A stretch of DNA of 32,111 nucleotides, from positions 1 to 32,111 of the forward strand of contig NZ_JALJRB010000038.1 in assembly GCF_022968795.1 (NCBI RefSeq), in the 5' to 3' direction. The notes under the pieces are model-generated. The model ran no database searches. It was given only the letters and a program-made list of their open reading frames with translations, and was not told the origin of the DNA. This DNA is from Desulfatitalea alkaliphila (GTDB lineage Bacteria; Desulfobacterota; Desulfobacteria; Desulfobacterales; Desulfosarcinaceae). Shown piece after piece: positions 8,882-26,134 of this stretch; the first letter of the stretch is position 1; every line of letters starts with the position of its first letter. The position numbers were made by a program, and so were the translations under genes.

Positions 8882-8904
8882 CTGCCCAAAAATTGCAAGG
8901 ATGC

Positions 8905-9081
8905 ACGGCCCTGCGGTGCCCTGAGAGGGGCTTAAAACGGGAAACCGGTGAAAATCCGGTGCGGACCCGCCGCTGTCATCGGGGACGAAGCCCGCAATAT
9001 GCCACTGATCCGACACCAAACGGATCGGGAAGGCGCGGGGAGTAGGTCGATCCGAAAGCCAGAAGACCTGCCGAAGGCCGT
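8905..9081 (+). ncRNA. Cobalamin (B12) riboswitch
   Basis: The class hallmarks occur in order. The closing helix P1 is ACGGCC (8905-8910) with GGCCGT (9076-9081). Core segments include GGTGCC, CTTAAAACGGGAA, the conserved GGTGAAAATCCGGTGCGGAC, CCCGCCGCTGT, then CCACTG and CGGGAAGGCGCGGGGA. The 3' B12 box AAGCCAGAAGACCTGCC lies at 9056-9072. It binds adenosyl- or methylcobalamin in the known class. A strong terminator begins 20 bases later, so control is probably by premature termination when B12 is present. The downstream genes are a ferredoxin and an AOR-family enzyme, an unusual target for this riboswitch. Confidence 0.93.
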
Positions 9082-9101
9082 TTTGATCTTGGTGAGAAGG
9101 T

Positions 9102-15640: not shown

Positions 15641-16840
15641 TCAGGACCGGTAATCGGCGTTGATTTTGATGTAGTCGATGGAAAGGTCGCAGGTCAACAT
15701 GGCGGCTTGACCCGCTCCCTGCTGCAGGTCGATGGTAACGGTGAATTCCGGTTGCTGCATCACCGCCGTCACTTGGTCTTCGGCCGCCTGACCGCATCCG
15801 GCGCCGTCCTTGACCATCTGCACGCCGTCGAAAAAGATCGCCACCCGTCGCGGGTCAAAATCCACCCCGGCACGGCCCGCGGCAGCCACGATGCGGCCCC
15901 AGTTGGCATCCTCCCCGAAAAAGGCGGTCTTGACCAGGGGTGAATGGGCCACGGTGTCGGCGATGCGCATGGCATCCTCCGCTGACGGCGCGCCCTGCAC
16001 ACGGATCGCCACGACCTTGTTGACCCCCTCTCCATCCTTGACCAGCAGACGGGCCATATCCATCAGCAGCTCATTGAGCACCGCCTGGAACACCGCTTGC
16101 TGCTCGACCGTGCGCACTTCGACGCCCGAGACACCGTTGGCCATGATCAGGACCGTGTCGTTGGTACTGGTGTCGCCGTCGATGGTGATCCGGTTCAGGG
16201 AACGTTCCACTGCCGGCCGCAGCATGGTCTGCAGCCCGTCGGCCGGCACGGCGGCGTCGGTGCACACAAAACAGAGCATGGTGGCCATGTCGGGGCGGAT
16301 CATGCCGGCCCCTTTGGCCGTGGCCAACACCGTGAACGGGCGTCCGTCCAACATCCCCTGCCGCACCATCAACTTGGGCACCTTGTCGGTGGTCATGATG
16401 GCTTGTGCAAAATTGTTGAAGCCGTCCGGCCCCAATTCCCGCACCAGGGCCGGCATGGCGTCCCGCACCTTCTCGATGGGCAACGGTGCGCCGATCACGC
16501 CGGTGGAAGCCACCATCACCGCCTCGTCATCCAGCCGCAACCCGTCGGCAGCAGCGGCGGCCATGGCCGCGGCATCCGCATCGCCCTGACCACCGGTGCA
16601 GCAATTGGCGTTGCCGGCGTTGACCACGATGGCCTGTCCGGCACCGGCCGCCACCCGGGCCTTGGTCAAGGTCACCGGCGCGGCGGTCACCCGGTTGCGG
16701 GTGAACATACCGGCCACGGTGGCCGGCACCAAACTGTATATCAGCCCCAGGTCGAGGGCGTGCTTCTTCTTGATCCCGGCCGCCATCCCGGCGGCATGAA
16801 ACCCGGGGCATTGCAATGCTGTGTCCACATCCACCTCCAT
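15641..16840 (-). CDS. argJ: Bifunctional glutamate N-acetyltransferase / ornithine acetyltransferase
   Basis: A 399-residue ArgJ that moves acetyl from N-acetylornithine to glutamate, recycling acetyl groups in arginine synthesis. The precursor self-cleaves before a conserved threonine, visible as Thr187 in the motif KGAGMIRPDMATML. Other hallmarks are NAGNANCCTGG and ASTGVIG. The start is uncertain: ATG 16840 has a weak upstream site, while GTG 16828 follows GGAGGTG and may be the true start. The frame is open to 16891. The gene heads a likely operon with rluB and perhaps the UDP-sugar dehydrogenase. A promoter is visible upstream. Confidence 0.93.
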   Translation of the reverse strand: MEVDVDTALQCPGFHAAGMAAGIKKKHALDLGLIYSLVPATVAGMFTRNRVTAAPVTLTKARVAAGAGQAIVVNAGNANCCTGGQGDADAAAMAAAAADGLRLDDEAVMVASTGVIGAPLPIEKVRDAMPALVRELGPDGFNNFAQAIMTTDKVPKLMVRQGMLDGRPFTVLATAKGAGMIRPDMATMLCFVCTDAAVPADGLQTMLRPAVERSLNRITIDGDTSTNDTVLIMANGVSGVEVRTVEQQAVFQAVLNELLMDMARLLVKDGEGVNKVVAIRVQGAPSAEDAMRIADTVAHSPLVKTAFFGEDANWGRIVAAAGRAGVDFDPRRVAIFFDGVQMVKDGAGCGQAAEDQVTAVMQQPEFTVTIDLQQGAGQAAMLTCDLSIDYIKINADYRS

Positions 16841-16873
16841 GAAAAACGGGCTTGATAGAACTGCTGAAGGCCC

Positions 16874-16902
16874 TAAATGATGCAATTGCAATCAAAAGTC
16901 AA
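16874..16902 (-). promoter_or_regulatory. Promoter of argJ
   Basis: On the minus strand TTGACT (16902-16897) and CATTTA (16879-16874) are 17 bases apart. The palindrome TGCAATTGCA (16881-16890) lies in the spacer and could be an operator. Transcription would start about 25 bases before the ATG. Confidence 0.5.
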
Positions 16903-16980
16903 TTCGACAGTTAATCATTTTCAGCAAACCGGGTTCCATGCTACATACCGTGGCAGCTTATGAAACGAGGAGCGATTGCC

Positions 16981-17169
16981 ATGCGCCTGAATGCCTTGAA
17001 TTTTCAATGTCCCCATTGCCGGACCGCCCTTGCGCTGCACCGCACCTGACGGCAGATACGCTGGCGCTGCATGGACTGCGGCCACCTATACGACCTGAGC
17101 GACCTGCTCGACCAACTGGATGAACGTATGGAAGCGGCCCTGGGCGGCTTCATCAGCGACCGCTTGTGA
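16981..17169 (+). CDS. Dual-CxxC small selenoprotein with in-frame TGA (probable Sec)
   Basis: A 62-residue product if TGA at 17047-17049 (codon 23) is read as selenocysteine. Before it lies MRLNALNFQCPHC with one CxxC. After it the same frame continues RQIRWRCMDCGHLYDL with a second CxxC, then an acidic helix to a normal stop. The ATG follows GAGGAG at 16967-16972. The protein is a zinc-ribbon-like or redox pair of CxxC motifs with Sec between them, matching what I know as the 'dual CXXC motif small (seleno)protein' family. Just after the TGA a short hairpin can form: GCAG 17052-17055 with CTGC 17067-17070, inner CG/CG, loop CTGG. This would fit a bacterial SECIS. The gene ends ten bases before the AEC permease gene. 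The alternative is a nonsense-mutated gene. Confidence 0.72.
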
Positions 17170-17179
17170 GTCTGGTGGG

Positions 17180-18103
17180 ATGATCGTCCAACACCTCTTT
17201 CCCGTCTTTGCCCTGATCCTGCTGGGGGTGGCGCTCAAACGGCTGCAAATGACCAACGCCGACTATCTGGCCACCACCGACCGACTGGTCTACTACGTCT
17301 TCTTTCCCGTTTTGCTCTTCTGGAAAATCGGCGGCGCCGATCAGACCTTCACCCCCGCGGCGCTGCGTTTTCATCTGGCCGTCATGCTCTCGGTCATCGC
17401 AGTCTACGTGCTCAGCGCGCTCTACATCCGCCTGCGCCCAGTGCCGGACTTCCAGGCCGGCACCTTCTCCCAAACCTGCTACCGCTTCAACACCTACGTG
17501 GGCATGGCCGTCATCCTGAGCCTCATGGGCGAGTCGGGGGTGGCCCAGTTCGGCATTCTCATCGGGCTGGTCATCCCCCTGATCAACATCCTGGCGGTAG
17601 CCACCCTGGTGTGGTTCTCCGGCCGACCGGCCACCTGGCGCAGCCGACTGCGCACCACCGCGGTCTCCATCGTCACCAACCCCCTGGTCTTGGGTTGTGC
17701 CGCCGGCCTGGTTTATGCCCGCTGGATCAACACCTTTCCCCGCTTCATCGACAACACCCTCTCCCTGGCGGCGGCCCTGACCCTGCCCCTGGCCCTCTTT
17801 TCCGTGGGCGGCAGCCTGACCCCCCGCACCTTGACGCAGCACTTCCGGCCGGCCCTGGCGGGCGCCCTGTTCAAACTGCTGCTGCTGCCGGCGGTGGGCT
17901 ACGGCATCATGCGCTTGCTCAACGTGGGCGACCCCTTTTTCTTCATCGGGATGATCTTTTTCGCCCTGCCCACATCCACCGCCATTTACGTCCTTTCTTC
18001 CCAGTTGGGCAGTGACACCCAGTTGGCCTCGGCCGCCATCCTGCTTTCCACCGCCCTCTCCTTCGGTTCTCTCTCCCTGGTGTTGTGGTGGTTCCATGGA
18101 TAG
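17180..18103 (+). CDS. AEC-family transporter (auxin efflux carrier / malonate permease type)
   Basis: A 307-residue integral membrane protein with about ten hydrophobic spans in two halves, as in the AEC superfamily. Characteristic segments are the N-terminal PVFALILLGVALKR, VFFPVLLFWKI, and the C-terminal ALPTSTAIYVLSSQLG. The family includes malonate and other carboxylate carriers; the substrate here is unknown. ATG 17180 is preferred because it begins the first membrane helix and follows GGTGGG. The stop overlaps the truA start by several bases, so the two are translationally coupled. Confidence 0.85.
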   Translation: MIVQHLFPVFALILLGVALKRLQMTNADYLATTDRLVYYVFFPVLLFWKIGGADQTFTPAALRFHLAVMLSVIAVYVLSALYIRLRPVPDFQAGTFSQTCYRFNTYVGMAVILSLMGESGVAQFGILIGLVIPLINILAVATLVWFSGRPATWRSRLRTTAVSIVTNPLVLGCAAGLVYARWINTFPRFIDNTLSLAAALTLPLALFSVGGSLTPRTLTQHFRPALAGALFKLLLLPAVGYGIMRLLNVGDPFFFIGMIFFALPTSTAIYVLSSQLGSDTQLASAAILLSTALSFGSLSLVLWWFHG

Positions 18104-18851
18104 GACCTTCAAGCTGGTCATAGAATACGACGGCACCGACTACTGCGGCTGGCAGCGCCAGCCCAACGGCCGCACCATTCAGCAGACCATCGAAGATGCC
18201 CTGGCCCGCATGACCCGCCAGGCGGTGGTCTTGACCGGATCGGGGCGCACCGATGCGGGGGTCCACGCCCTGGGTCAGGTGGCCCATTTTTCCTGCGATA
18301 CCACCATCGCGCCCGAGGCATTGCAGAAGGGACTCAACAGCCTGCTGCCCGACGACATCGTCATTCGGGCCTGCCAACCGGCGCCGATCGGTTTTCACGC
18401 CCGTTTTGACGCACATGGGAAGACCTACCGCTACACCATCCGCAACACACCGCTGCCGGCCGCCATCGGCCGCCAATACGCCTGGTGGATCCGCTCACTT
18501 CTGGACACGGCGGCCATGACCGCCGCCGCCGCCCACCTGGTGGGCCGTCACGACTTTAAAAGCTTCGAAGCCGCCGGCAGCCCCCGCGCCCATACCATCC
18601 GCCACATCAGCCATGCCGAAGTGCGCTGCGACACACAAGGCATCGTCACCATCGATGTCACCGCCGACGGTTTTTTGCGCCACATGGTGCGCAACATCGC
18701 CGGCACCCTGGCCGCCGTGGGTCGCGGCAAGCTGCCGTCGGAACAGATACCCGCCTTGCTGGACGCCCGCGACCGCACCCTGGCGCCGCCCACCGCCCCG
18801 GCCCACGGCCTGTGCCTGATAAAAGTGCTCTATAGCGAAGAAGGGAAGTAA
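18096..18851 (+). CDS. truA: tRNA pseudouridine(38-40) synthase
   Basis: A 251-residue TruA that forms pseudouridine at positions 38-40 of the tRNA anticodon arm. The catalytic Asp53 lies in GSGRTDAGVHALGQVAHF. Other TruA signatures are YDGTDYCGWQRQPNGRTIQ near the N-terminus, KTYRYTI in the middle and GFLRHMVRNIAGTL in the C-terminal half. ATG 18096 sits inside the end of the permease gene, whose stop is 18101-18103. Length is normal. Confidence 0.95.
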   Translation: MDRTFKLVIEYDGTDYCGWQRQPNGRTIQQTIEDALARMTRQAVVLTGSGRTDAGVHALGQVAHFSCDTTIAPEALQKGLNSLLPDDIVIRACQPAPIGFHARFDAHGKTYRYTIRNTPLPAAIGRQYAWWIRSLLDTAAMTAAAAHLVGRHDFKSFEAAGSPRAHTIRHISHAEVRCDTQGIVTIDVTADGFLRHMVRNIAGTLAAVGRGKLPSEQIPALLDARDRTLAPPTAPAHGLCLIKVLYSEEGK

Positions 18852-25217: not shown

Positions 25218-25489
25218 GGGATCTCCTTTCAGCCCCCGATGGCATTTTCATTTCACAGCGGTTATTCATGCATCATCGGCAGATGGATGAAAAACATGAG
25301 CCGTGTCGGGCCGTCCAACCCCGACCGCCGCGGGATATCCAACGCGATCATCCATTATGGCACAGCCGGCACCGGTGTCTTGAGAGCGTTCTCAGCGCCG
25401 AACAACAACCCTTCGCGGTACGCCACCGATTGGGTTATAATCCAACATGGCGTTCCATTTTCGGCAAGATCCGACAAGGAGAAATAGGC

Positions 25490-26134
25490 ATGACCGATCT
25501 GAAGACCATCCGACAAAGAGCGACCGAACTGGCCCGGCGGGATTGGGACCTACCCGCCATCACGGCCCGTTTCAAAGACATGGTGGACCACGGCATCCCC
25601 CGTCAATCAATGGCACCGGCCGACCTGATCCGCGAAAAGGAGGCGTTTCTGGACAAGGTCCAGCACAACGCGGAACAGTACTGCTATCTGACCCGCAGCT
25701 GCGCCAAGGGATCCGCCTTGGCCCTTTTGGAAGCCTTCGGCCTGGGCAACATGGAGATCATCCGGGCCCTGGCCCCCTTTCCAGGTATGTGCATGTCGGG
25801 TGGTCTGTGCGGCCCCGTGACCGGCGGGCTGATGGCCATCGGGCTCTATTTTGCCGATGACGACCCGGCCGACGTCGCCAACACCGCTCACTATGCCGCC
25901 GGCAGGCAATACCTGCAGCGATTCGAAGCCGCCTTCGGTAGCCTTTTATGTCCGGACATCCAAAAATTGCTGCTGGGAAAAGCCTACGACCCCTTCGCCG
26001 GACCGGACGAACGCGACGCCTTCAACCGATCCGGCGCCCGGGAAAAATGCCCGGTCGCCCCCGGCCTGGGCGCCCGCATGGCGGCGGAAATCATCATTGA
26101 GGGCATGGAAAAGCAAAACCGCCCTCATGCTTGA
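25490..26134 (+). CDS. C_GCAxxG_C_C family redox-type protein
   Basis: A 214-residue protein of the family named for its cysteine/glycine motif. Visible parts are SCAKGSALALLEAFGLG (about 66-82), GMCMSGGLCGPVTGGLMAIG (about 95-115) and two later Cys in LLCPDIQ and EKCPV. The family is thought to bind a metal or take part in redox reactions, but its function is not established. ATG 25490 follows AAGGAG at 25476-25481. The N-terminal 50 residues are helical and carry a DMVDHGIPRQSMAPADL segment. It stands alone between two minus-strand units. Confidence 0.8.
   Translation: MTDLKTIRQRATELARRDWDLPAITARFKDMVDHGIPRQSMAPADLIREKEAFLDKVQHNAEQYCYLTRSCAKGSALALLEAFGLGNMEIIRALAPFPGMCMSGGLCGPVTGGLMAIGLYFADDDPADVANTAHYAAGRQYLQRFEAAFGSLLCPDIQKLLLGKAYDPFAGPDERDAFNRSGAREKCPVAPGLGARMAAEIIIEGMEKQNRPHA

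Follow-up and report, generated by a model that had tools for sequence, protein, structure and literature searches.

According to our analysis, the window, a stretch of 32,111 nucleotides of DNA from the sulfate-reducing bacterium Desulfatitalea alkaliphila that represents one entire contig of a 5.07-Mb genome in 98 contigs, holds a small gene whose internal TGA very probably codes for selenocysteine (Sec), as judged from comparison with related sequences. That codon 23 is Sec and that the gene belongs to the family NF041197/OS_HP3 is a joint claim of which we are highly confident. The 62-codon frame starts with an ATG at position 16981, extends to 17166, crosses an in-frame TGA at 17047 to 17049, and encodes MRLNALNFQCPHCRTALALHRTURQIRWRCMDCGHLYDLSDLLDQLDERMEAALGGFISDRL. 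The original prediction had described a frame intact across this TGA with a normal stop at its end, a CxxC on either side, and a ribosome-binding site upstream; each of these was found, as the frame is closed by a TGA at 17167 to 17169, the CxxC pairs occupy residues 10 to 13 and 30 to 33, and GAGGAG precedes the start codon (Table 1). A scan for promoters and terminators returned one promoter-like site at 16852 to 16881, against a mean of 0.3 in shuffled sequences, and no terminator.

Table 1. Features of the selenoprotein gene and its neighbours, in positions of the window
Feature	Position	Strand	Remarks
Selenoprotein gene, NF041197 (OS_HP3)	16981..17169	+	62 codons plus stop
Ribosome-binding site GAGGAG	16967..16972	+	Read from sequence; 8 nt 5' of ATG
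First CxxC (CPHC), presumed zinc knuckle 1	17008..17019	+	Its two Cys do not vary across 36 aligned sequences
In-frame TGA, very probably Sec, residue 23	17047..17049	+	TGA in relatives; Cys in the column of 26/26 stop-free rows
Predicted bacterial SECIS hairpin	17066..17082	+	Stem 17066-17071/17077-17082, loop 17072-17076, invariant G 17073
Second CxxC (CMDC), presumed zinc knuckle 2	17068..17079	+	Encoded within the SECIS hairpin
Mem_trans (auxin-efflux-carrier type) permease, downstream	17180..18103	+	ATG 10 nt after the selenoprotein stop
truA-type tRNA pseudouridine synthase, downstream	18096..18851	+	Overlaps the permease end
argJ, divergent upstream neighbour	15641..16891	-	

The database search proposed with the original prediction led to a named selenoprotein family. 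With Cys written for Sec, the product matched positions 1 to 53 of the 53 of the NCBIfam profile NF041197.2 (CxxC_Se_CxxC, "dual CXXC motif small (seleno)protein") at 61.6 bits, above the curated cut-off of 40, and it has the arrangement by which members are recognised, a pair of CxxC motifs flanking a Sec or Cys; when the genome was searched with the TGA left inside the gene, the score was 51.9 bits. A 2026 review (PMC13188914) equates NF041197 with the hypothetical protein OS_HP3, lists its motif as RxU and credits it to Zhang and Gladyshev 2007, and OS_HP3 is also listed in PMC9312934. The window gene shares with this family the whole profile, the Sec between two CxxC and the R-x-U as listed in PMC13188914; nothing essential differs, although the window copy has Ser, and not Cys, before the C-terminal DRL. 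This kind of gene is therefore already catalogued and not new, and of the predicted "hidden selenoprotein gene" the selenoprotein stands whereas "hidden" was overstated, since the family is both in print and in NCBIfam. The further expectation, that the gene would escape standard gene callers, is only partly right, because the NCBI library has an NF041197 model, yet OS_HP3 of Desulfosarcina widdelii PP31 is the one known selenoprotein reported as missed by deep-Sep (PMC12013277). No function is given in the passages on OS_HP3 in PMC13188914, PMC9312934, and PMC12013277, and among the papers found that pair selenocysteine with a zinc ribbon, no title concerns the NF041197 family.

The deep-Sep paper of 2025 (PMC12013277) also describes a protein DW, which PMC13188914 files under NF041197 as well. 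The window gene resembles it in being a Sec protein with the same filing but differs in motif, which is listed as GxU for protein DW and is RxU here. Among the sequences scoring under the NF041197 cut-off, we observed a sister group of 12 loci, each having one TGA and the motif GxU, and six of the 12 genomes concerned also hold an over-cut-off member (five Sec forms and one Cys form). Going by its motif, this sister group may be the published protein DW. Three other loci under the cut-off (L139, L142, and L143) have a first pair of the form CxC, not CxxC, followed by R[RK]USG and a hairpin past the TGA, and share the same C-terminal CDR.

The reading of the TGA as Sec is carried mainly by comparison among genomes. 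The gene is present in 48 of the 60 genomes searched (own genome included), each with one row containing a single TGA, and the first 30 loci read all have U at one shared column; the nearest relatives by protein (nine loci) are from Desulfatitalea and from Desulfobacteraceae/Deltaproteobacteria MAGs. Across the phylum, 395 genomes (own included) were searched with the NF041197 model, which matched in 112 and scored above its cut-off in 88, yielding 89 over-cut-off rows, of which 62 contain one TGA and 27 are free of stops. In all 26 stop-free rows that cover the TGA column, the residue is Cys; the 27th (G425) spans only profile positions 17 to 53, past the Sec column, and was left out of this count. 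Sec and Cys forms occur even within a single genus (g84 of family f76, genomes G099 and G352). A TGA in relatives together with Cys in the same column of homologues, known as Sec/Cys exchange, typically marks a selenoprotein, and the deep-Sep paper relies on it as well (PMC12013277); the combination of a conserved in-frame TGA with Cys homologues, by which bacterial selenoproteins are recognised, is what we found here.

Below the cut-off, L149, the one read of the two stop-free rows L149 and G444:C134, also has Cys in the Sec column. In the 60-genome search, genomes G045 and G031 each contain a second, weaker, stop-free row; these two paralogue rows (L150 and L151) carry Arg, not Cys, at the corresponding place and belong to a different, weaker-scoring group.

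Since TGA ordinarily terminates translation in this code, and without Sec the product would have only 22 residues, the codon could in principle be a nonsense mutation, leaving either a pseudogene or a gene for a 22-residue peptide plus leftover sequence. We regard this as extremely unlikely, given that the TGA is kept across families, that stop-free relatives have Cys in its column, and that the hairpin described below is kept. Moreover, the codons 3' of the TGA are under purifying selection, with a pN/pS of 0.37 compared with 0.49 for the codons before it (11 sequences, the window and 10 near relatives), values that indicate conservation of the frame far beyond chance. The original prediction held that close relatives lacking the second half of the frame would favour such a mutation; when checked, the relatives keep it.

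The original prediction also pointed to a short, SECIS-like hairpin just past the TGA, and this feature proved to be kept in the TGA loci and not in the Cys forms. It is formed by GCUGCA and UGCGGC around the loop UGGAC, which begins 22 nt past the TGA. The bSECIS criteria given in PMC13188914 are an upper stem of 4 to 16 bp, an apical loop of 3 to 9 nt with a G in its first two positions, a distance of 16 to 37 nt between loop and UGA, and a minimum free energy of at most -7.5 kcal/mol; the window has a stem of 6 bp, a 5-nt loop with G second, a distance of 22 nt, and -8.2 kcal/mol for the segment 17064 to 17084 (z -1.40; 14/200 shuffles at least as good). Folding of 17047 to 17090, as had been proposed, gave an energy of -12.7 kcal/mol, which was not unusual (z -0.40; 69/200 shuffles at least as good). 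Taken by itself, the hairpin thus appears ordinary in energy, and what argues for a SECIS is comparison rather than the single sequence. Rfam returned four matches near the TGA, all far under their gathering scores, and these were rejected.

For this comparison, 46 distinct Sec loci were aligned gap-free from the TGA, with the stem in columns 20 to 25 and 31 to 36. The set combines 35 of the 48 TGA rows of the 60-genome search with 11 of the 62 over-cut-off TGA rows of the phylum; genome G039 occurs in both sources, and identical stretches were counted once. Loci with any other residue in the column of the Sec/Cys set would be flagged as missing, and only two were flagged, L097, which has the TGA and was left out of the Sec set owing to a distance limit, and L113, which was left out for the same reason and is a repeat of L067. 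In the Sec loci, 96.0% of the 276 stem cells pair, against 17 to 53% when the partner is slid, and RNAalifold predicts five of the six stem pairs from the same alignment. Cells changed on both sides number 11, compared with a shuffled mean of 1.6, and the stem covariation score is 0.288, compared with a shuffled mean of 0.191 and with 0 of 500 shuffles as high. Only two stem pairs change on both sides, a number not above that of shuffles (135/500), so that the covariation comes from the two outer pairs.

The same columns behave differently in the 26 Cys loci, where 59.6% of cells pair, no better than in shuffles. At least five of the six pairs form in 45/46 Sec loci versus 4/26 Cys loci (p 1.8e-13, which is indicative only, as the sequences are related), and the loop G is present in 46/46 versus 15/26. 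The constraint is visible also in codon choice, as TGC is used for 89/92 cysteines of the second CxxC, compared with 60/92 of the first, in Sec loci (p 2.7e-8, again indicative only for related sequences), while the Cys loci present no such contrast between the pairs (41/52 versus 38/52). Synonymous divergence among the 11 sequences, the window and its 10 near relatives, is 0.35 in the SECIS codons and 0.67 in the remaining part after the TGA.

The genome encodes the machinery for Sec, with bit scores of 605.2 for selA, 379.6 for selB, 367.2 for selD, and 73.5 for tRNA-Sec, all above cut-off, and ARAGORN, independently of the tRNA model, called a tRNA as SeC(tca). The original prediction had asked for selA, selB, selC, and selD and counted their lack as favouring a nonsense mutation, an objection that does not apply here. 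The cut-offs are less than fully specific, as among 14 well-known control genomes selB and selD each pass in two, selA in one, and the tRNA model RF01852 in five. We considered the association of the family with selA as evidence for Sec and dropped it, since selA is found in most phylum genomes tested, whether they carry the family or not: 52 of 54 TGA-form genomes (of 61 with over-cut-off TGA rows), all 26 Cys-form genomes, and 71 of 80 genomes (of 283) without a match.

Both selA misses, G101 and G064, belong to genus g50. In these two genomes and G136 of the same genus (67, 79, and 62% complete for G101, G064, and G136, respectively), neither selA nor SepSecS, the other known route to Sec-tRNA, was found over cut-off (0/3 each), whereas tRNA-Sec was detected in all three and selB in G064 and G136 but not in G101. 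Incomplete assemblies may account for the missing selA and SepSecS, which are otherwise unexplained. Genome G064 has two full-length selB matches over cut-off, one of which lies 54 bases from a second tRNA-Sec-like gene (G064:C163:452-2487); a like pair occurs in G136 (C258). The selD of the window's own genome (G000:C16:32576-33502) itself has an in-frame TGA and is probably a selenoprotein too.

Readthrough of TGA is known in other cases, so that a full-length protein could arise without Sec, by insertion of Trp or by leaky termination. Such decoding is scarcely credible for the window gene, considering that the over-cut-off stop-free rows have Cys, not Trp, in the column, that the gene's own end is a TGA, and that the gene has a SECIS-type hairpin and the genome the Sec machinery. 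Conserved TGA, Cys column, kept hairpin, and machinery together uphold the claim of the original prediction that the TGA is decoded as Sec. SelB with Sec-tRNA would then read the UGA at 17047 as Sec owing to the hairpin.

An AlphaFold2 model of the protein, built from 10 sequences and showing no metal, is of moderate quality (pLDDT 74.4, pTM 0.52) and places strands at residues 16 to 21, 26 to 30, and 36 to 38, a helix at 39 to 58, and Sec 23 in a turn at 22 to 25. The predicted arrangement most likely corresponds to a zinc ribbon in which Sec occupies the hairpin turn separating the two Cys pairs. Foldseek returned 248 matches against the PDB at E <= 10, none of them at E <= 0.001; the first was ZifS of Thermus thermophilus, and RNA polymerase subunits made up the majority of the best 50 of the 248. 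In predicted fold, the model thus weakly resembles the RNA polymerase zinc ribbons (RPC10/C11 and RPB9) and ZifS. Pfam zinc ribbons remained under their cut-off (best 22.3 versus 25.4 bits), and a profile search of solved structures gave 39 mostly short matches at E <= 1, with the putative cytoplasmic protein 2jrp as the best (E 1.9e-05).

Across 36 sequences, R21, D47, and E51 are nearly invariant, as are the four Cys and the Sec/Cys column. A Cys precedes the C-terminal [DN]R in 37 of the 44 Sec loci scored (L003 and L014, truncated by contig ends, were left out), and it is this residue that is Ser in the window copy. Together, the two CxxC pairs probably coordinate a single zinc ion, which would leave Sec, or Cys in other members, in the β-hairpin turn as an exposed, reactive selenol, with the C-terminal Cys perhaps as its optional partner. 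On the basis of the ribbon model with Sec in the turn, the conserved residues, and the C-terminal Cys, we infer a small thiol/selenol redox or electrophile/metal-responsive protein, a role that has about an even chance of being the correct one. Alternatively, as Sec is surrounded by four invariant Cys in a sequence that resembles a zinc ribbon, it could serve the zinc site as a ligand of the metal or in a structural capacity, instead of forming a redox centre. This we deem unlikely, though worth keeping in mind, as four Cys are already enough to bind one zinc and the model puts Sec in the turn between strands, not at a CxxC.

The genomic neighbourhood, as read from the sequences, suggests no firm partner for this putative redox protein. 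Among 41 loci, clusters of argJ, permease, and truA genes occur within about 8 kb in 15, 12, and 16 cases, respectively, and all of these occurrences fall within a first batch of 21 (window included), from the order of the window. In that order, the gene usually has argJ and truA nearby. A partnership with TruA, or with tRNA or ribosome modification, could be proposed from the truA and argJ counts. However, the truA cluster is absent from the second batch of 20 loci, two of which (L114 and L115) are of the window's order, and other genes adjoin there (alaS, asd, and others, read by eye), which weakens a functional linkage via truA and makes such a partnership improbable.

Elsewhere in the window, a strong cobalamin riboswitch (124 bits) lies at 8897 to 9089 on the plus strand and precedes a short frame, Cys-rich and ferredoxin-like, and a long one resembling an aldehyde ferredoxin oxidoreductase, an unexpected pairing in which the frames were named by reading. 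At 25484 to 26131 (plus strand), a frame without internal stop encodes a putative redox protein of the C_GCAxxG_C_C family, Sec forms of which are listed in PMC13188914. A phage-type integrase with an Arm DNA-binding domain is encoded near the contig end (361 to 1668, minus strand), and no tRNA genes were found within the window.

TFIIS-type zinc ribbons insert an acidic tip, and by analogy the Sec-tipped hairpin might enter RNA polymerase or the ribosome at its active site or channel. We hold this to be very improbable; if true, the inserted selenol would let anaerobes sense redox state or electrophiles in transcription or translation. The gene offers a clean comparative confirmation of a stop-like codon as Sec, in which the second CxxC and the SECIS would share the same bases. 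With no function given in the literature passages on it and a member missed by a published predictor, the NF041197 family makes a good small target for biochemistry.
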